This document shows positions 51,136 to 59,201 of a stretch of DNA of 64,000 nucleotides, piece by piece. Below the pieces are notes generated by a model. It was given only the letters and a program-made list of their open reading frames with translations. It had not been told where the DNA came from and made no database searches. The DNA lies in NCBI RefSeq assembly GCF_030296695.1, contig NZ_AP027737.1:1054001-1118000 (forward strand). The letters are read 5' to 3'. The position numbers and the translations under genes are program-made. The stretch is from Agromyces mangrovi (lineage in GTDB: Bacteria; Actinomycetota; Actinomycetes; Actinomycetales; Microbacteriaceae). The first letter of the stretch is position 1; each line of letters begins with the position of its first letter.

Positions 51136-51816
51136 GTGTTCTCGTACACCCACCTCACCGACCGTTCCGCCGTCGACCGCGCGCTCGAGGAGTTCGATCG
51201 CCTCGGCCGGGATGCCTTTCTGCACACGTACGGCTTCGGCGAGGCCCGCGACTACTTCCTGGTGACCGAGTCTGGCCGCTACGACTCGAAGGCGATCTTC
51301 GGAGTCGCCTTCGGCAACCAGTTCGGCGTGACCCCGGGCCCCGACGTCTTCAGCGGCGGCCGCACCGGCGCCGCCGGCCGCCTCGCCGAACTCGGCTACA
51401 CGATCGAGGGCATCGACGACCGCAAGGCCCGCCAGACCTTCCTCACCTTCGACGAGGCGCTCGAGGCGCGGCCTCTCCCGCTGGGCAACGTCGACGCCGC
51501 CCGCCGCTTCCTCGCCCGCCGCGACGACGCCGAGTTCTACGTGCCCTCGTCTGGCGCCTACATCGCCGCGGTCCCCCGCAAGGGAAACGCGACCGCCTTC
51601 ATCCACAGCGACTACATCTCCTGGCGCACCTCGAAGGGCGAGGCGGAGCTGACCCCGCTCACCGCCGCTCGTGCTCGTGCCGCCGGCTCGTCGCGCGCTT
51701 CGGGCGCGACCCGAGCGCCTCGCACTCCTCGCGTCGTCGTCCCCGAGCGCGTCGAGTCGATCTGCCCGACGTGCACCATGGTGCTCCCGGTCAGCGGCGA
51801 GTGCGAGTTCTGCTGA
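51136..51816 (+). CDS. ScoMcrA N-terminal-head-like protein with C-terminal zinc ribbon
   Basis: A 226-residue protein. Residues 1-100 (AVDRALEEFDRLGRDAFLHTYGFGEARDYFLV in part, then SGRYDSKAIFGVAFG and FSGGRTGAAGRLAELGYTI) resemble the N-terminal head domain of ScoMcrA, a restriction enzyme for modified DNA. The C-terminal 20 residues hold two Cys pairs (CPTC and CEFC), a likely zinc ribbon, after a Ser/Arg/Pro linker. It has no nuclease domain of its own. It converges on the GIY-YIG helicase gene 27 bp away. The resemblance is from memory of the motif pattern, so the family is moderately sure and the function is not. Confidence 0.6.
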   Translation: MFSYTHLTDRSAVDRALEEFDRLGRDAFLHTYGFGEARDYFLVTESGRYDSKAIFGVAFGNQFGVTPGPDVFSGGRTGAAGRLAELGYTIEGIDDRKARQTFLTFDEALEARPLPLGNVDAARRFLARRDDAEFYVPSSGAYIAAVPRKGNATAFIHSDYISWRTSKGEAELTPLTAARARAAGSSRASGATRAPRTPRVVVPERVESICPTCTMVLPVSGECEFC

Positions 51817-51843: not shown

Positions 51844-53577
51844 TTAGGCAGTTGACGAGGGTACGAAGCGTCGGAGGTACTCCCGCAACGCCGGATCACA
51901 CGCGTAGACGAACGTGCCTCGCATTCCTCGCGAAAGCAACACACCGTAGATGTTGGTGATGAAGCGCAGCAGATCCTCGTCCGAGTACTCGATACCGAGC
52001 TTCGGGTTGTTCTCCTTGCCTTTCTTGTCGTAGTAGGAGTCCCGATCGATGTACATCCGCCCGGCGTACGCGTCGTAACGCAGTTCGGGCCCGATGATCA
52101 CGCCCGCGTAGTTGAGGTCGTATCCCTGAACTGTGTGAATCGAACCCACCTCGTCAAGGGATCCGGGCGTATTGATCCAGTCGACCTGCGTACTGTTCCA
52201 GCGCAACCGACGACCGTCGAGTTCAATGTCGATTGCGTTGGGGTCCGACTTCGATCGGTATGGCCAGGCGTAGCCTGCCGCCAAGCGCGCGAGACCGAAC
52301 TCCTTGTCACGATCCCGGATTGCGTCATGCATCTCACCGACATCGTCGAAGAGACGCAACTCGTAGCCTTCGAATACTCGAGCCTGCACCGGCGATGCCT
52401 GCAGGATCTTCCTGATGAAGTCGAGGTAGTCGGCCCCTGCGAGGACACGCATCTGGGATGCAAGCGGATAGAACCGGTGACTGCCACGCGTCTCGTCAAT
52501 GAGGGCGTCGAGCACGGGCGCGGGCAGGTCTGCTGGCCGAACGCTCTGCGCCGCATCCAGCAGAAACACCTGGTGGGTGCTCTTCGCGCGGATCCAGTCT
52601 AGTTGCGTCTTGGCCAGATCGTCCTTGCCGAACAGCTTCACGTTGTTCTCGGCGAACTGCTTGTTCAAGGGCCCCGAGGGTTGATTTGCGCGCTGATTCA
52701 GCCGGTGAGCTTCATCGACAATGAGGAGATCGAAGTGCTCGTCGCTTCCGCCGATCTCGAACGGCGTCAACACGAGGTCGGCGCCCAATGCCGGGGTCTT
52801 CTTGAAGACGTTCTGGATGGACTTTCGGAGCGACTGCTGCGGCACAACAAGACCGATCTTGAAGCCGCGGAGAAGGTCGGGGTATCCCTCGGCGAAGAAG
52901 TCCGAGAAGAGCGAGTCGGCGTCCGGCTTGTCGTGCGGGTTCGCGACTTGAATGTCGCGAAGCAGCTTCATCAAGAAGATCCCGACGATGGTCTTCCCTG
53001 TGCCCGGATCCCCCTGCACAACGATCGTGCTCTGTCGGTCGTGCTCAAGGTCCTCGAAAAGCCCCTCGAGAATGTCCTCGACGGCGATCGCCTGGTCATC
53101 GTTCAGAGCTTTGAACGGCGACAGCTTAAAGAAGTCGCTATTCTCGATGTGCACGCGATCTCGCGTGAACATCCCCTGCTCGCGCAGTTCCTCGAAGATC
53201 TGGTCGAACGACTCGCGGTAGCGACGACGGTCGTAGTAGTCCGAGTCAGTGATGCCCTCGTTCCGGTTCAACACCTTGAACTGCCCGTCGGCTGCGAAGA
53301 GTCGAATGAGGTAGGACTCCAAGTCGAGGCATGCCGACTTGTTGAACCGCTCGTCGATGACGATCCTCATCGCCTGAAGACGGTGTCGCTGCTTGTCGGG
53401 TGAGTCGAGGTGCTGACGCATGCGAACAACCGCGTTGAGCGTCTCTCCGATGTAGATCTCACGTTGATTACTCAACGTGTAGACCACGGGCCAGTTGGCG
53501 TGTCGTCCTTCGGGATCGACCCAACTCTTCAGGGCTCCCGGATCAAACGGAAGATGCTCAATCCTGAAGTCGGTCAT
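51844..53577 (-). CDS. GIY-YIG nuclease fused to DUF2075 (Schlafen-like) helicase
   Basis: A 577-residue fusion. The GIY-YIG domain (about residues 28-108) has VVYTL, IYIGET, the Arg-containing VVRMRQH, the Glu in LDLESYL and the Asn in KVLNRNEG, so all catalytic positions are present. The DUF2075 P-loop ATPase follows: Walker A GDPGTGKT (189-196), Walker B LLIVDEAH (284-291), SIHTVQGYDLNYAGVIIGP, and the SF1-like ending LLSRGMRGTFVYACD. Such fusions are typical of DNA defence or repair. Its start overlaps the MazG gene by 20 bp, so the two are coupled. Lower GC than the flanks (55 percent in the line at 52921) suggests transfer. Confidence 0.88.
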   Translation of the reverse strand: MTDFRIEHLPFDPGALKSWVDPEGRHANWPVVYTLSNQREIYIGETLNAVVRMRQHLDSPDKQRHRLQAMRIVIDERFNKSACLDLESYLIRLFAADGQFKVLNRNEGITDSDYYDRRRYRESFDQIFEELREQGMFTRDRVHIENSDFFKLSPFKALNDDQAIAVEDILEGLFEDLEHDRQSTIVVQGDPGTGKTIVGIFLMKLLRDIQVANPHDKPDADSLFSDFFAEGYPDLLRGFKIGLVVPQQSLRKSIQNVFKKTPALGADLVLTPFEIGGSDEHFDLLIVDEAHRLNQRANQPSGPLNKQFAENNVKLFGKDDLAKTQLDWIRAKSTHQVFLLDAAQSVRPADLPAPVLDALIDETRGSHRFYPLASQMRVLAGADYLDFIRKILQASPVQARVFEGYELRLFDDVGEMHDAIRDRDKEFGLARLAAGYAWPYRSKSDPNAIDIELDGRRLRWNSTQVDWINTPGSLDEVGSIHTVQGYDLNYAGVIIGPELRYDAYAGRMYIDRDSYYDKKGKENNPKLGIEYSDEDLLRFITNIYGVLLSRGMRGTFVYACDPALREYLRRFVPSSTA

Positions 53578-53884
53578 ACTTCGTGCTTCGGTCGCGGGCG
53601 AGGTCCGCCGGGTACTTCTCGCGGGTGACCTCAAGCTTGTCCAGCACGATCTGTTCGGGGTCGACCCCGAGCTTGTCGGCAAGCAAGATGCAGTAGGTCA
53701 GCACATCCGCAAGTTCCTCGGCAACCCGCGCCGAGTCTGCGTCAGCGCCCCACTGGAAGCACTCAAGAAGCTCTGCGGACTCAATTGAGATGCTCTTGGC
53801 AAGATTCTCGGGAGAGTGAAACTGCTCCCAGTTACGCTCTGCCATGAAGCGCCGAAGCGCCTCTCGAACCTCTGCACTCGCCAC
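53558..53884 (-). CDS. MazG-like nucleotide pyrophosphohydrolase (dCTPase/RS21-C6 type)
   Basis: A 108-residue all-alpha NTP-PPase. The metal-binding signature is ESAELLE (ExxE) followed by EELADVLTY (ExxD), after NWEQFHSPENLAKSISI. It hydrolyses a (deoxy)nucleoside triphosphate to the monophosphate and PPi. The start is taken as GTG at 53884, because TACGCT at 53892-53897 ends 7 nt upstream (leaderless); GTG at 53914 is the longer alternative. It is the first gene of the pair with the GIY-YIG helicase. Pairing of a nucleotide-pool enzyme with a nuclease-helicase is repeated in the next cassette. Confidence 0.85.
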   Translation of the reverse strand: MASAEVREALRRFMAERNWEQFHSPENLAKSISIESAELLECFQWGADADSARVAEELADVLTYCILLADKLGVDPEQIVLDKLEVTREKYPADLARDRSTKYDRLQD

Positions 53885-54098
53885 GCATCGCAGCGTAGCA
53901 GCGGTGTCGTGCACAGGATCGGCGACCTGAGTGGGTGGCGGCGTGCTGGCGGTGCTCAGCTATGTCACCAGGCTGTCGCAGGATGTGAGTCACGTGCGTG
54001 TGAATCAGAGGCCCATGTGCTCGTGTTCCCTCGCGGGCTGGACCCGGCCAGTCGACCAGTGAGTCTGTGCGACCGCTGGTAGCCGAAGGACTGCGGCG

Positions 54099-54344
54099 CT
54101 ACGGGAGCGCCTTCTTCGCGGAGATGATCGCGGCACGGATGATCAGGAAGAGCGCTCCAAGGTTGAACGCGACCGCGCCGGCGGAAAGGCAAAGCACGCC
54201 GAGCACCAGCAGGGGCGGAGGTACAGAGTACGAGTCCAGCGCCACGCCGTAGAACACGCCGCCGAGGAGCATCAGCCCTATCCCCAGCACGACTGCGGTC
54301 CACGCGCTCTGCGGTCCCTTGTCCGTGTCACTAGTGTTCGTCAT
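54099..54344 (-). CDS. Small two-helix membrane protein
   Basis: An 81-residue protein with two hydrophobic segments (about residues 15-33 and 43-70) separated by a short polar loop (LDSYSVPPP). No family was recognised. AAGGAAAG lies before the ATG at 54344. It lies between the two defence cassettes with no evident link to either. Confidence 0.65.
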   Translation of the reverse strand: MTNTSDTDKGPQSAWTAVVLGIGLMLLGGVFYGVALDSYSVPPPLLVLGVLCLSAGAVAFNLGALFLIIRAAIISAKKALP

Positions 54345-54477
54345 TCGTCTTTCCTTCGAGTCTGCGTGGACGAGTCCAGGGTGGAAGAGCTGCGTGGCTT
54401 TCGCGACCCCCAGTACTGGTGGCGCCGCGGCACTTCTCTCCAACCACCGGGAAACGTGTTGATCAGGCCACCGGACA

Positions 54478-54900
54478 CTAGCTCGGAATTCGGACGAGGG
54501 GATGCATGCCGCGATCCGGACCGTCCCGCGCCCGCCGCCCCGTACCGCGCTGCCGCTGCGCCCGCCGCTCATCCAGCAACGCGATCCGCCGCCGCATCAC
54601 CGTGAGCAGCGCCGCGACCCGACGCCGCTGGTGCGGGTCGAGCGCGCCGGCCGCGTCGAGCGTGCTCGCCTGTGCGGCGAGCGTCTGCACGCACAGCACG
54701 GTGTCGTGGCGGAACGTCTGGAACGCCTGCTCCGGGCGCGCGGCGAGACGGTCGAGCCGATCGTCGAGCACCAGCAGCCACAGCTCGTGTTCCTGCACGT
54801 CGGCGAAGAACTGATCGCGGATGCCGCGGGGCAGCGGAGCACCCGGAACGCGGCGCCGGTCCGCGTCGGCGGCGAGGTCGTGGTGCGAGTCCGAGCTCAT
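54478..54900 (-). CDS. Hypothetical helical protein, 140 residues
   Basis: Not recognised. Residues 30-115 are predicted as long amphipathic helices (ELWLLVLDDRLDRLAAR, RRRVAALLTVMRRRIALL), consistent with a coiled coil or helical bundle; the tail is Arg-rich. GAGGAG lies 6 nt before the ATG at 54900. Its base composition is high-GC like native genes, unlike the cassettes on either side. Confidence 0.65.
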   Translation of the reverse strand: MSSDSHHDLAADADRRRVPGAPLPRGIRDQFFADVQEHELWLLVLDDRLDRLAARPEQAFQTFRHDTVLCVQTLAAQASTLDAAGALDPHQRRRVAALLTVMRRRIALLDERRAQRQRGTGRRARDGPDRGMHPLVRIPS

Positions 54901-55013
54901 CTGAGGCTCCTCGGGGACTCCAGCCGCAGCCGAAGATCACAACGCTAGAGGGAGCCTCCGACATCGGAAGAGGCATGCCCGCCTTGGGACCACTCGCCCG
55001 CAATCGGGCTCGC

Positions 55014-55019
55014 TACGGT
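55014..55019 (+). promoter_or_regulatory. -10 box of the Nudix gene, leaderless
   Basis: TACGGT ends 6 nt before the ATG at 55026. Confidence 0.45.
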
Positions 55020-55025
55020 TGTGTC

Positions 55026-55427
55026 ATGCCAGCAGCGCTTGAAGTCGTCGCCGCCGCGATCCACAGCGACGGCAGAGTTCTCGCGTGCCGCCGCCGACAG
55101 GGCAAGGCGGCCGCCGGCATGTGGGAGTTCCCGGGCGGCAAGGTCGAGAGTGGGGAGCGACCAGAGTCTGCACTCCAGCGCGAACTGCTCGAGGAGCTTG
55201 GCGTGGAGGTTCAGGTTGGAGATCTCATCGATCGAAGCAGCACAACGGTAGGCGCTCTGACAATCGACCTCGCGACCTATTGGGTGTCGCTCGTCGACGA
55301 CCACCCAACGGAGAGCACCGACCACGATCAACTCGAATGGCTCAGTCCGGAACAGCTCCCAACTCTTGAGTGGGCAGAGCCGGACCTGCCAGCGGTCCTG
55401 GCGATCACTCGCCAGTCTTCGCGCTGA
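55026..55427 (+). CDS. Nudix hydrolase, MutT (8-oxo-dGTP diphosphatase) type
   Basis: A 133-residue Nudix protein with a complete box, GKVESGERPE followed by SALQRELLEELG (Gx5Ex7REUxEExGU), and the MutT-type start LEVVAAAIHSDGRVLACRRRQG and WEFPGG. It would hydrolyse an oxidised or modified nucleoside triphosphate. It lies 110 bp before the PLD-helicase gene on the same strand. MutT-like genes are a recurrent partner of DUF3427 helicases. GC is lower than the flanks. Confidence 0.88.
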   Translation: MPAALEVVAAAIHSDGRVLACRRRQGKAAAGMWEFPGGKVESGERPESALQRELLEELGVEVQVGDLIDRSSTTVGALTIDLATYWVSLVDDHPTESTDHDQLEWLSPEQLPTLEWAEPDLPAVLAITRQSSR

Positions 55428-55537
55428 GCGAGCGAGAGGACTACGTCACACGAACTGGGGGCAGTTTGCCCCGCCGGATTCATGGGACCTGTCACCGGCT
55501 CATGACAGTCTGAGTTGCAACCGACGAAGGGGATCAC

Positions 55538-58500
55538 GTGCTCGACGGCCTGTACGAGAGCCCGCTCACCGTGCGGCTGCGCCAGGCTCTGAACGAGCTG
55601 TCAGATCAACGCCACGATCTCAGCCATGTCGATGAAGCGGACCAACCAGCGTTTCTCGCGCAGCACATCCTCCAGGCAGCCGAACACGCGCTGAGCGGTG
55701 CGCGCTCGACAGAGGATCGCGTGCGAATCACCAACGCTGTGCTCAACGCACTCGGCCGCGACGAAGAGATGATCGACTCGGGGATGCAGCGGCTGGATTT
55801 CATCACACACAGTGCCGCCCCCGGTGTTATCGAGTACTCGGCACGGCGGCCATCCATCCCGCTTGCCGAGACGGCCCTTCTGACGAACGCACGCGACGAG
55901 CCGCAACTGGGGCACGAATTGCGCGCCGAGTTGGAGAGCGCAGACCACGTCGATCTCCTGTGCGCTTTCGTGAAGTGGCCCGGACTGCGCATTCTCGAGG
56001 ACCCGCTGGAACGCCTGAAAGACCGCGGCGCACCGCTTCGAGTCGTGACGACCACATACATCGGCGCGACCGATCCATTCGCACTTCGCGCGCTCGTGGA
56101 GCGCTACGACGCCCAGATCAAAGTGCAGTACGACATTCGACGCACCCGGTTGCACGCCAAGGCGTGGCTGTTCCGCCGGGACTCGACATTCGACACCGCG
56201 TACGTGGGGTCGTCAAACCTCTCACGCGCAGCCCTGCTCGATGGGCTGGAGTGGAACGTGCGACTCTCGCGAATCGCGACACCGAGTCTCATCACGAAGT
56301 TCCGGGCAACATTCGATACCTACTGGTCGGATGCCACGTTTGAGGAGTACGTTCCCGACCGAGACGAAGAACGTCTCCGAGACGCGCTTGCCGAGGCATC
56401 CGGCACCAAGTCCACCGACCGGGTAACGATCTCGCTCTCCGGTCTCGATGTGCGGCCGTATCCGCATCAATCCGAGATGCTGGAGTCGCTCGCCGCGGAG
56501 CGTCAGACACACGATCGGCACAGAAACCTCATCATCGCCGCGACAGGAACCGGCAAGACGGTGGTGGCCGCCCTCGACTACAAGCGACTCGTCGCCGAGG
56601 CCGGCGCAGATCTCCGGCTGCTCTTCGTCGCGCATCGTGGAGAGATCCTTCGGCAGTCGCTTCGCACTTACCGCGAAGTGCTCGCGGATGCGAGCTTCGG
56701 TGAAGAGTTCCACGGCGGTGCCCGGCCAACGCAGTGGAAACATGTCTTCGCTTCAGTGCAGTCGCTTTCGCACTATGCAATTGAGCAGGTGCCCGCAGAC
56801 GCCTTCGATGTCGTCGTCATCGACGAGTTTCACCACGCCGAGGCACCGACCTATCGACGCCTCATCGACCACCTGCGCCCCACCGAACTGCTTGGACTGA
56901 CCGCGACGCCGGAGCGCTCAGACGGCATCGACGTACGTTCGTTCTTCGAGGGACGAAGCGCCTCGGAGCTCCGGCTCTGGGATGCGCTCAAGGCCGATCT
57001 TCTCGTGCCGTTTCACTACTTCGGCATTGCGGATGACACGGACCTCTCGCGTCTCGAATGGAAGCGAGGGTCATACGACACGAGCGCCTTGAGCGCCCTG
57101 TACACCGGCAACGATGCCCGCGCACGGATCGTGCTCCGCCAGGTACGCGACAAGATCGGCGACGTAGGTGAGATGCGCGCGCTCGGCTTCTGCGTCAGCG
57201 TTGAGCACGCGCGTTATATGACACAGGTCTTCAATGAAGCCGGCATACCGTCCGTGACTGTGACCGGAGACACTCCAAGGGGCGAGCGCCGTGCCGCAGT
57301 CCGCGACCTCGAGCAGGGAGACGTGAACGCGATATTCACGGTCGACGTGTTCAATGAGGGCGTCGACATTCCACAGGTCGACACCGTGCTGTTTCTTCGC
57401 CCGACCGAGAGCGCGACGATCTTCATCCAGCAGCTCGGACGTGGACTCCGGCACCACCCGTCGAAAGCGGTCCTGACCGCACTTGACTTCGTCGGCCACC
57501 AGCGCACCGAGTTCCGATTCGACCGACGATTCCGGGCGTTGACCGGCGTGTCTCGCGGGGCACTCAAACGAGAGGTCGAGCAGCAGTTCCCCTTCCTCCC
57601 TGCAGGATCGCAGATCATGCTGGATCGGGTCAGCCGCCGCATCGTGCTCGACAGTATTCGCCGCCAGCTGTCGCTCAACGCACGCGAACTTGCATCCGAC
57701 GCCCGCTTGACCGGCGTGACGAGCCTTAGGGAGTTCCTTGCGGCTCAAGACCTGGAACTCAGCGATCTCCTGCGATCGAGTGGGAAGCCCCGCACCTGGA
57801 CCACCATCAAGCGTGATGCCGGCCTCGAAGTTCCGAACCCAGGCCCAAACGAAACTCCTCTGCTCAAACGCGTCCGCGCCCTCGCGCATGTGGACGACCC
57901 TGAGCGCGCGGAGGCATACCTTCGAATACTCCGCGACCCCGCCAACGTTCCCAGCGACCCGCTTCAGCGACGATTCGCCGAGATGCTCTTCTACTCGCTC
58001 TGGCCAACCGGGGGCGGCTGGAACTCGATCGACGAAGGCCTCGCTTCTCTGAACCAGGAACCCGCCGTGGCTGCCGAGCTCGCAGAGGTCATCGAGCTCG
58101 CGCAGGACGCATCACGACACGTGGTCAACATCCCTTCCGAGATGGAGGGCACCCCACTTCGAACGCACGCGCAGTACCAGCGAGAGGAAGTGCTCTCAGC
58201 GCTCAGCTGGGCGTCCCTGGCGAAGCCACCCTCGCAGTTTCGAGAAGGCGTGCTCTGGTCAGAGCGCTGGAAGAGCGACGCGTTCTTTGTCACGCTCAAG
58301 AAGTCCGAGGCCGACTACTCCCCCTCCACCCTGTATCGGGACTACGCAATCAGCCCATCGCTGTTCCACTGGGAGTCGCAGTCCACGACGTCCGAGTCTT
58401 CACCCACGGGCCAGCGCTACATCAGTCACGCCGCGCGAGGCAGCACGGTGCTGCTGTTCGTGCGCGAGGCAGGCAAGAACGATCTGGGAACCTCGCCGTA

Positions 58501-58624
58501 CACGTTCCTCGGTCCGGCGAAGTACGTCTCCCACGAAGGCGAACGTCCGATCTCGTTCACGTGGCGCCTGGATTCACCGATGCCGACCGACCTCTACCTG
58601 GCAGCAAGTGCTGTCGCCGCCTAG
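55538..58624 (+). CDS. PLD-nuclease / SF2 helicase / DUF3427 protein
   Basis: A 1028-residue multidomain protein. A PLD-type nuclease domain (about residues 110-265) has the HxK motif LHAKAWLF (His206, Lys208) and VGSSNLS. An SF2 helicase follows: PHQSEML, Walker A ATGTGKT (335-341), DEFH box (429-432), GLTATPER, and QQLGRGLRHHP as motif VI. The remaining 350 residues correspond to DUF3427, ending in a beta-rich region (TVLLFVREAGKNDLGTSPYTFLG). Only one HxK is evident, so the nuclease would act as a dimer. The start is GTG at 55538 with GAAGGGG 6 nt upstream. Its likely role is DNA restriction or anti-phage defence with the Nudix partner; the target is unknown. Confidence 0.88.
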   Translation: MLDGLYESPLTVRLRQALNELSDQRHDLSHVDEADQPAFLAQHILQAAEHALSGARSTEDRVRITNAVLNALGRDEEMIDSGMQRLDFITHSAAPGVIEYSARRPSIPLAETALLTNARDEPQLGHELRAELESADHVDLLCAFVKWPGLRILEDPLERLKDRGAPLRVVTTTYIGATDPFALRALVERYDAQIKVQYDIRRTRLHAKAWLFRRDSTFDTAYVGSSNLSRAALLDGLEWNVRLSRIATPSLITKFRATFDTYWSDATFEEYVPDRDEERLRDALAEASGTKSTDRVTISLSGLDVRPYPHQSEMLESLAAERQTHDRHRNLIIAATGTGKTVVAALDYKRLVAEAGADLRLLFVAHRGEILRQSLRTYREVLADASFGEEFHGGARPTQWKHVFASVQSLSHYAIEQVPADAFDVVVIDEFHHAEAPTYRRLIDHLRPTELLGLTATPERSDGIDVRSFFEGRSASELRLWDALKADLLVPFHYFGIADDTDLSRLEWKRGSYDTSALSALYTGNDARARIVLRQVRDKIGDVGEMRALGFCVSVEHARYMTQVFNEAGIPSVTVTGDTPRGERRAAVRDLEQGDVNAIFTVDVFNEGVDIPQVDTVLFLRPTESATIFIQQLGRGLRHHPSKAVLTALDFVGHQRTEFRFDRRFRALTGVSRGALKREVEQQFPFLPAGSQIMLDRVSRRIVLDSIRRQLSLNARELASDARLTGVTSLREFLAAQDLELSDLLRSSGKPRTWTTIKRDAGLEVPNPGPNETPLLKRVRALAHVDDPERAEAYLRILRDPANVPSDPLQRRFAEMLFYSLWPTGGGWNSIDEGLASLNQEPAVAAELAEVIELAQDASRHVVNIPSEMEGTPLRTHAQYQREEVLSALSWASLAKPPSQFREGVLWSERWKSDAFFVTLKKSEADYSPSTLYRDYAISPSLFHWESQSTTSESSPTGQRYISHAARGSTVLLFVREAGKNDLGTSPYTFLGPAKYVSHEGERPISFTWRLDSPMPTDLYLAASAVAA

Positions 58625-58669: not shown

Positions 58670-58813
58670 ATGCCCTCACAGGTCGCTTGGCTCGATGCCT
58701 CGAGCGAAGAGCAACGCCGGATGCGCGACATCATCCGCTTGTTCGCCGACCGCGAGAGTCGCGATGAACTCGGGCTGGGTCAGATTCGCGACGCCATCGC
58801 GGACTCGCTCTTC
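58670..58813 (+). pseudogene. DUF6361 protein, N-terminal fragment
   Basis: The first 48 or so residues match the conserved N-terminus of DUF6361 proteins: QVAWLDASSEEQRRMRDII and RDELGLGQIRDAIADSLF. Full-length members continue with FPGTS and several hundred residues. Here the homology stops at about 58813 and the sequence becomes the antisense of the NYN gene; the frame stays open to 59008 by chance. It follows the helicase stop by 45 bp and was probably a third member of that cassette. Confidence 0.72.
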
Positions 58814-59127
58814 AAGTCGCTGTCGCTCGAGACGATGCAGAACGCCTGGAAGCGGCCCATGGAGAGCAGGTCCATCGCGTCGATGATGAGGGCGCTGTCG
58901 GTCGCGTTCTTGCCGACGGTGTTCGCGAACTGCTGCATCGGCTGGATCACGTGCTCGCTCGCCGCCGCCTTCCAGCTGCCGAGCTGCGGTTTCGTCCAGT
59001 CGCCGTAGACGCGTTTGACCGACGCCGTGCAGAATTGCGTGATCTCGGTGAGCACGGCGCCGATGCGCGAAGGCGAGACGTTGTCGGCGTCGATGAGGAC
59101 CGCGATGAGGTCGTTGGGCTGGGCCAT
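58780..59127 (-). pseudogene. NYN-domain (PIN-like) RNase, truncated at its C-terminus
   Basis: 115 residues from ATG 59127. It has the NYN pattern: LIAVLIDADNVSPSRIGAV (catalytic Asp), KRVYGDWTKPQLGSW, ALIIDAMDLLSMGRFQAFCIVSSDSD. After the SSDSD motif the expected RLATRIREEG region is missing, and the last 11 residues are encoded by antisense DUF6361 sequence. The NYN fold retains its acidic residues, so residual activity is possible, but the C-terminal LOTUS/OST-type part is lost. The join at about 58811-58815 is a deletion scar. Confidence 0.75.
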
Positions 59128-59201
59128 TGGGCAAGTGTGGCAGGGGTGGGCGTGCCGGTCGGTTCGGTTTTCCACCCCTGCCGCAGTGGGCTACCCGAGG
59201 C

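Follow-up and report, generated by a model that had tools for sequence, protein, structure and literature searches.

SauUSI of Staphylococcus aureus reads 5-methylcytosine (5mC) or 5-hydroxymethylcytosine (5hmC) through a C-terminal domain of SRA fold, and then translocates and cuts (PMC7913695; this and the other publications cited are drawn on in excerpt). TagI / Sco5333 (SRA-HNH) and the MspJI-type enzymes (SRA-PD-(D/E)xK) also carry an SRA domain, which reads 5mC, in company with other nuclease domains and no ATPase. In the nucleotide pool, 5-methyl-deoxycytidine triphosphate (5-methyl-dCTP) is acted upon by NudG (E. coli Orf135), mycobacterial MutT2 and Bacteroides fragilis Q5LBB1; according to published work on relatives of these hydrolases it is incorporated by polymerase, its likely source being degraded methylated DNA. 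These strands meet in a 64,000-nucleotide stretch of Agromyces mangrovi (contig NZ_AP027737.1, positions 1,054,001 to 1,118,000; the whole stretch is 'the window' below), which encodes a SauUSI-type enzyme beside a NudG-like Nudix hydrolase and, next to them, a MazG-like pyrophosphatase beside a GIY-YIG nuclease-helicase (Table 1). The reading put forward here, to which we give slightly better than even odds (about 0.52), is that the SauUSI-type enzyme has its own cleaner of the nucleotide pool, and that the MazG-GIY pair is a second module of the same logic with another trigger.

The original prediction, made from the sequence, had described two back-to-back cassettes, each joining a nucleotide-pool sanitiser to a nuclease and a motor. 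Open reading frame (ORF) coordinates and Pfam bear out all four genes, their domains and the overlap between the MazG-like and GIY genes, which is exactly 20 nt (53558-53577). The cassettes do adjoin one another; the pairs are, however, divergent, and a gap of ~1.1 kb holding small ORFs lies between them. The gene described as PLD plus SF2 helicase plus DUF3427 has those domains, but belongs to an enzyme type that is already known (PADLOC mREase_IV, structure 7clg), and the pairing of sanitiser, nuclease and motor stands in a narrower form, the closest or best solved structures of both hydrolases placing them with enzymes of 5-methyl-dCTP type.

A SauUSI-type restriction enzyme and its predicted target

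The PLD-helicase combines PLD, superfamily 2 (SF2) ATPase and C-terminal SRA/DUF3427 regions in a single chain, which is the architecture of SauUSI, with every Pfam match over its cut-off (PF13091 33 bits, PF04851 117, PF00271 54.1, PF11907 93.8). PADLOC mREase_IV scores 1115.7 bits across residues 94-1027, the SauUSI structure 7clg is matched at E 3.4e-88, and the HxK and GSSN motifs of the PLD nuclease align with it. The 5mC-pocket residues named for SauUSI in PMC7913695 (F841, I842, D858, W868) correspond to F917, V918, D935 and W945, in a C-terminal stretch that scores just 19 bits and leaves Y831 outside the alignment. From domain order, nuclease motifs and these four pocket positions, the protein is of SauUSI type and is predicted to be a 5mC/5hmC-dependent type IV restriction enzyme. 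It differs from SauUSI, which acts alone, in having ~110 extra N-terminal residues and a Nudix partner, and is just 33-37% identical to the group of homologues that resemble canonical SauUSI.

Across 297 genomes of the order, SauUSI homologues (E <= 1e-60) occur in 75. C5 METHYLTRANSFERASE avoidance is evident among these carriers, 16/75 of which have a C5 methyltransferase as against 115/222 genomes without SauUSI (odds ratio 0.25, p 3.7e-6; here and below, Fisher tests that ignore phylogeny); the remaining 59/75 carriers have none. The pattern is found in carriers of the window's own clade (12/56 with a C5 methyltransferase, p 1.5e-4) and, at p 0.054, in those of the canonical-like group (4/19). 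The A. mangrovi genome itself yielded no C5 methyltransferase at E <= 1e-20. Because SauUSI carriers avoid C5 methyltransferases, these counts support 5mC as the target of the SauUSI-type cassette.

A NudG-like Nudix hydrolase and its partners

The Nudix protein passes the Pfam cut-off for PF00293 (72.4 bits) and scores 143.6 bits against PADLOC PDC-S07, which we take to be an unverified class of phage defence candidates. Its best NCBIfam model, NF007834 (pyrimidine dNTP diphosphatase, presumably NudG), is matched at 95.1 bits, under the cut-off of 156, so that the protein is NudG-like rather than NudG, and unlike NudG it is encoded with a restriction enzyme. No second Nudix match was found in its own genome at E <= 1e-6. 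The seven best matches in the PDB include 2rrk (NudG), 5zrc (MutT2) and 3gwy; 2RRK is given as a 5-methyl-dCTP pyrophosphatase (PMC5389931), and the 3gwy enzyme has a kcat/Km of ~4.8e6 on 5-Me-dCTP and ~4.4e6 on 5-hydroxymethyl-dCTP (PMC5158307).

Nudix matches (E <= 1e-22) were present in 67 of the 297 genomes. After removal of the window's own genes and of two second fragments (G138, G083), 74 of 77 SauUSI rows and 74 of 75 Nudix rows remained. A Nudix gene lies within 2 kb of 31 of the 74 SauUSI homologues, upstream and on the same strand in all 31, with a spacing of 38 to 882 bp; it precedes 18/19 canonical-like homologues and 13/55 of the window's clade. A further adjacent case is probably hidden in genome G081, scored as having no Nudix neighbour, where the start of SauUSI runs off the contig end beside a Nudix match (G081:C28, itself tallied as lacking any partner) and the SauUSI match is listed from residue 208 on a different contig. 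To look beyond the order, eight plasmid stretches were examined (seven from a SauUSI search that matched 294 records, one from a GIY search): three have an annotated Nudix-type neighbour (Lactiplantibacillus, Hymenobacter, Latilactobacillus), four have none, and one record is unannotated (Arthrobacter, in the order by its taxonomy line).

SauUSI is the largest class of partner (31/74 Nudix matches) within a wider association. Altogether 43/74 Nudix matches lie near a tested 5mC enzyme, against ~0.2 by chance, an estimate based on a genome size of 3.6 Mb and some 200 methyltransferases, with the SRA-PD-(D/E)xK class omitted. The partners beyond SauUSI are SRA-HNH proteins, SRA-PD-(D/E)xK-like proteins and C5 methyltransferases. 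The first two resemble TagI / Sco5333 and MspJI-type enzymes, neither of which is present in the window; the HNH partner had 0 matches among PDB sequences at E <= 0.01 and was then answered by fold. At least 5/74 Nudix matches have a C5 methyltransferase within 5 kb, a lower bound from 19 methyltransferase rows chosen mainly from genomes with Nudix matches; one of these is a NaeI-type restriction-modification locus. In the Nudix tree, L146 is labelled 'other' although an SRA-HNH gene adjoins it. Conclusions on neighbours rest on tblastn and family scans, because simple ORF calling had overlooked both hydrolase genes of the window.

Several further genes were seen at such loci. A family of ~310 residues lies beside NudG-like Nudix genes at four loci (L063 6405-7373, L071 7209-8114, L200 1486-2436, L203 1501-2445); it has a weakly SRA-like N-terminus and, read by eye, a PD-(D/E)xK-looking C-terminus, the three members scanned had no Pfam match over cut-off, and its members are candidate new modification-dependent restriction enzymes. 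In another genome of the genus (G004; L186 7022-7966), a thymidylate-synthase-family protein (78.8 bits) is divergent from an adjoining NudG-like Nudix gene; that family includes dCMP hydroxymethylases. SauUSI-type and SRA-HNH genes are adjacent in G078:C10, G163:C468 and G152:C1, giving two predicted 5mC-dependent enzymes per locus.

The MazG-GIY pair

The GIY protein passes both of its Pfam cut-offs (PF09848 211.3 bits against 24; PF01541 26.2 against 22.6). PF09848, the SLFN-g3 helicase family, is presumably the former DUF2075, a label still used in plasmid annotations. Both this family and a fold match to SLFN11 are shared with the Schlafen (SLFN) group 3 helicases, although the nuclease is GIY-YIG and not the Schlafen core. 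Searches with the protein gave nothing meaningful among PDB sequences and 0 relatives among viral contigs.

Its MazG-like partner (PF12643, 69.5 bits, over cut-off) has dCTP pyrophosphatase 1 (DCTPP1) / RS21-C6 as its closest solved structures (E 9e-19); DCTPP1, too, is a pyrophosphatase of 5-methyl-dCTP. The ExxE...ExxD metal site is retained, and together with the best structural match this assigns the protein to the DCTPP1-like class. Residues E45, E48, E67, D70, W29 and W55 are invariant in the 76 of 80 GIY loci having a MazG match. The protein is bacterial and shorter than DCTPP1 (an alternative start is possible at an internal GTG, 53884), and differs from it also in being translationally coupled to a nuclease-helicase; its genome holds no second MazG-like match at E <= 0.001. 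The nearest solved relatives of the two hydrolases (NudG/MutT2/3gwy and DCTPP1/RS21-C6) suggest that both folds, though unrelated, act on 5-substituted dCTP.

The 80 loci are the best 80 of 578 relatives from a search with aligned GIY proteins, and are hence close ones, actinobacterial by their titles. MazG lies directly upstream of the GIY-helicase in 74 of them, with an overlap of ~20 nt estimated in 65 of those 74 (lengths being extrapolated from tblastn ends), as well as in 7/7 full-length GIY orthologues of a further search and, as an annotated neighbour, in 3/9 of the more distant plasmid GIY-type helicases examined (9 of 40 records). Pool enzymes accompany further restriction-type genes too: a Priestia plasmid (L194) has the order MutT, DUF3578, MazG, DUF2075 helicase, and a plasmid of L. 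amylolyticus (L192) a Nudix-type gene, DUF262, a restriction endonuclease and a DUF2075 helicase.

Separable modules, repeatedly combined

All four parts co-occur in nine other loci. The SauUSI homologue is of the window's kind in three of them (L030, L065, and L091 at 42%) and canonical-like, at 32-34%, in the others (L018, L024, L025, L027, L064, L089); the GIY-MazG module is thus seen joined to both kinds (L064, L089, L024 vs L030, L065, L091). Within the genome sample, GIY and SauUSI genes lie <=10 kb apart in five of the ten GIY genomes that also carry SauUSI (G000, G047, G112, G154, G313). Accidental pairing of the two cassettes can be rejected, as SauUSI is found within 10 kb of 4/29 GIY genes other than the window's, against ~0.05 expected. 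A single obligate four-gene system can be rejected too, since no SauUSI match (E < 1e-30) turned up around 73/80 GIY loci, in flanks of up to 8 kb, some of them short, and 19/29 GIY genomes are without SauUSI. Where SauUSI of the window's clade lacks a Nudix gene, a distant helicase relative adjoins it in L121, L122 and L124, and a close one in L134. We conclude that these are separable modules which have been combined repeatedly, whether by function or by the sharing of islands.

Of the two conditions by which the original prediction could fall, one, a failure of the hydrolase-helicase linkages to recur in other genomes, was put to the test, and both linkages do recur. Its proposal of a common mechanism finds no support: the GIY protein has no recognised reader and its carriers, unlike those of SauUSI, do not avoid C5 methyltransferases (12/29 vs 119/268 genomes, p 0.85). 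Nothing positive emerged for its alternative of a nucleotide signal or depletion upon activation. On the ground of C5-methyltransferase carriage, the idea that the GIY cassette is also aimed at ordinary 5mC was rejected.

Proposed self-protection and competing explanations

By homology with SauUSI, an SRA-type C-terminal domain would let the restriction enzyme read a flipped base (5-methyl- or 5-hydroxymethyl-cytosine); ATP hydrolysis would drive its translocation, and its PLD domain would cut invader DNA. Breakdown of methylated DNA would yield 5-methyl-dCMP, from which 5-methyl-dCTP could be rebuilt; polymerase would put this into host DNA, creating self targets for the restriction enzyme. 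The Nudix protein would hydrolyse 5-methyl- and 5-hydroxymethyl-dCTP, so that host pool and genome stay clean, and might incidentally hit the precursors used by phages with a modified cytosine of their own making. That a hydrolase would clear 5-substituted dCTP so that the 5mC-dependent nuclease spares host DNA is fairly supported for the Nudix-SauUSI pair. For MazG-GIY, a separable module in which translation couples a DCTPP1-like pyrophosphatase to a GIY-YIG and Schlafen-type helicase, the same self-protective logic would be an extrapolation, and the trigger would differ.

One must consider how much weighs against this reading. SauUSI by itself suffices for restriction (PMC3874153), and 42/55 homologues of the window's clade have no adjoining Nudix match; at E 1e-4, only 3/29 loci of that clade have one within ~1.5 kb. 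For both reasons, the Nudix protein is an accessory to SauUSI-type restriction. Nudix genes occur at only 5/34 SRA-HNH and 2/13 SRA-PD-(D/E)xK-like places, and 31/74 Nudix matches have no tested 5mC enzyme nearby. Because the Nudix score falls under the NudG cut-off and E. coli MutT, too, weakly hydrolyses 5-methyl-dCTP (PMC3744803), the substrate is not settled by sequence. No modified-base reader is seen in the GIY protein by Pfam or among the fold matches listed, whose coverage falls mainly within residues 104-577, and for 6/9 distant plasmid helicases the stretch examined includes no annotated MazG. The absence of C5-methyltransferase avoidance among GIY carriers, the neglect of phylogeny in the co-occurrence tests, and an association of GIY with SauUSI across genomes that is not significant (10/29, own genome included, p 0.26) count in the same direction.

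The main idea of the original prediction, that the hydrolases destroy a phage's 5-hydroxymethyl-dCTP or 5-methyl-dCTP and the nuclease cuts DNA bearing such bases, fits nearly as well as self-protection and predicts identical SauUSI and SRA pairs, itself a further difficulty for the latter. The 3GWY enzyme is equally active on both nucleotides (PMC5158307), SauUSI cuts 5hmC DNA (PMC7913695), and TagI cleaves 5mC or 5hmC DNA, including unglucosylated T4 DNA. Yet the excerpted TagI paper itself notes that SRA-HNH carriers are taxonomically mismatched to phages known to have 5mC or 5hmC genomes, and five of the 74 Nudix matches, the NaeI-type locus among them, lie by C5 methyltransferases, where no phage precursor is apparent. 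Pool hygiene is favoured over precursor destruction because of this last association, and we regard the phage-directed account as unlikely, if still a serious contender.

Defences that deplete deoxynucleoside triphosphates (dNTPs) are known, and an activated MazG, perhaps with the Nudix, might hydrolyse dCTP itself and so starve replication. DCTPP1 has high affinity for dCTP also (PMC7162842), and the ~20-nt overlap estimated for 65/80 loci suggests a fixed ratio or a complex with the GIY-helicase; such a response nevertheless seems rather improbable, as Pfam shows neither hydrolase with an added regulatory domain, a constitutive dCTPase would presumably be costly, and the Nudix-SauUSI spacing is variable. 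The adjacency of Vsr to Nudix in L178 and L096, and the C5 methyltransferases near at least five Nudix matches, would suit a Nudix whose role, like that of Vsr in repair, is to limit mutagenesis from 5mC in the wrong place, with restriction secondary. This we think very improbable, given that the partner in the largest class is a nuclease, and that C5 methyltransferases are missing more often from its carriers. Just as improbable is ordinary island traffic, in which MutT-type house-cleaners (of 8-oxo-dGTP) sit in defence islands functionally unlinked to their neighbours: the many Nudix matches apart from tested enzymes, and the filing of this Nudix under PDC-S07, presumably an unverified class, would be expected of it, but not the fixed order and strand of all 31 adjacent pairs, the repeated pairing with unrelated nucleases that have an SRA-type reader in common, or the conserved MazG coupling.

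Genomic context of the locus

The GC content of the four genes (0.589-0.644) is below that of the window (0.706), which suggests that the set was acquired. Its site, between carboxypeptidase and PPDK-like genes, looks variable, because the spacing of these flanks differs: 11.5 kb here, ~38 kb and ~26 kb in two genomes of the same genus without a GIY match (G023 and G001), while in G013 the GIY gene lies ~9 kb from the equivalent PPDK-like gene. The neighbour P0005, which directly adjoins the GIY cassette, has a window-like GC content (0.709) and no match in a Pfam scan; its PADLOC model (mREase_IV) is, we assume, of ScoMcrA kind. It is a stand-alone protein with a domain resembling the N-terminus of that type IV model, and at most a possible member of the system. 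Immediately downstream of the restriction gene, and oriented toward it, is an ORF with a NYN domain.

Table 1. Genes of the Agromyces mangrovi locus and its immediate neighbours (window coordinates)
Feature	Position	Strand	Match
Neighbour protein P0005, ScoMcrA-N-terminus-like domain + C-terminal Cys motif	51136..51816	+	PADLOC PDLC03662 46.8 bits, residues 32-114
GIY-YIG nuclease + SLFN-g3 (Schlafen-type SF1) helicase, 577 aa, GIY-YIG N-terminal	51844..53577	-	PF01541, PF09848
MazG-like all-alpha NTP pyrophosphatase; predicted (5-substituted) dCTP pyrophosphatase	53558..53914	-	PF12643, DCTPP1 match
Nudix hydrolase, NudG / MutT2 / CTP-pyrophosphatase-like group; predicted 5-methyl(hydroxymethyl)-dCTP pyrophosphatase	55026..55427	+	PF00293
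SauUSI-type type IV restriction enzyme, 1028 aa: ~110 aa N-terminal extension + PLD + SF2 ATPase + SRA-type DUF3427	55538..58624	+	
NYN-domain ORF	58780-59175	-	Pfam, 77.9 bits, profile positions 2-107 of 145

Novelty and implications

The SauUSI type was already known, and the Nudix family is already in PADLOC as PDC-S07; what is new is a Nudix subfamily, related to the 5-methyl-dCTP pyrophosphatases, that is found alongside several classes of 5mC enzyme. Within the titles and opening abstracts of the open-access literature searched, neither the MazG-GIY nor the Nudix-SauUSI pairing is described. One paper alone in that literature contains both SauUSI and Nudix, in separate contexts in the part seen (PMC7159879), no paper there brings DUF2075 and GIY-YIG together, and the word 'nudix' is absent from the main text of a 2025 restriction review.

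A broader and more tentative proposal, which we hold to be possible and somewhat less probable than its contrary, is that 5-methyl-dCTP pyrophosphatases serve cytosine-modification-dependent restriction generally, as its partners in self-protection, with self-immunity residing in the nucleotide pool and not in the DNA. Two unrelated folds (NudG-like Nudix and all-alpha DCTPP1-like) would have been recruited to unrelated nucleases (PLD/SF2/SRA, SRA-HNH, SRA-PD-(D/E)xK and GIY-YIG/Schlafen helicase), and the four genes of the window would form one compound module policing both DNA and dNTPs. Type IV restriction comes without a methyltransferase to protect the host, against which it could be turned by recycled 5mC nucleotides; if this is true, a dedicated cleaner of the pool would be a second kind of safeguard between self and non-self, and would provide a physiological role for the 5-methyl-dCTPases of NudG, MutT2 and DCTPP1 type. 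A NudG-like Nudix gene adjoining an SRA nuclease also offers a sequence rule for finding new modification-dependent enzymes.

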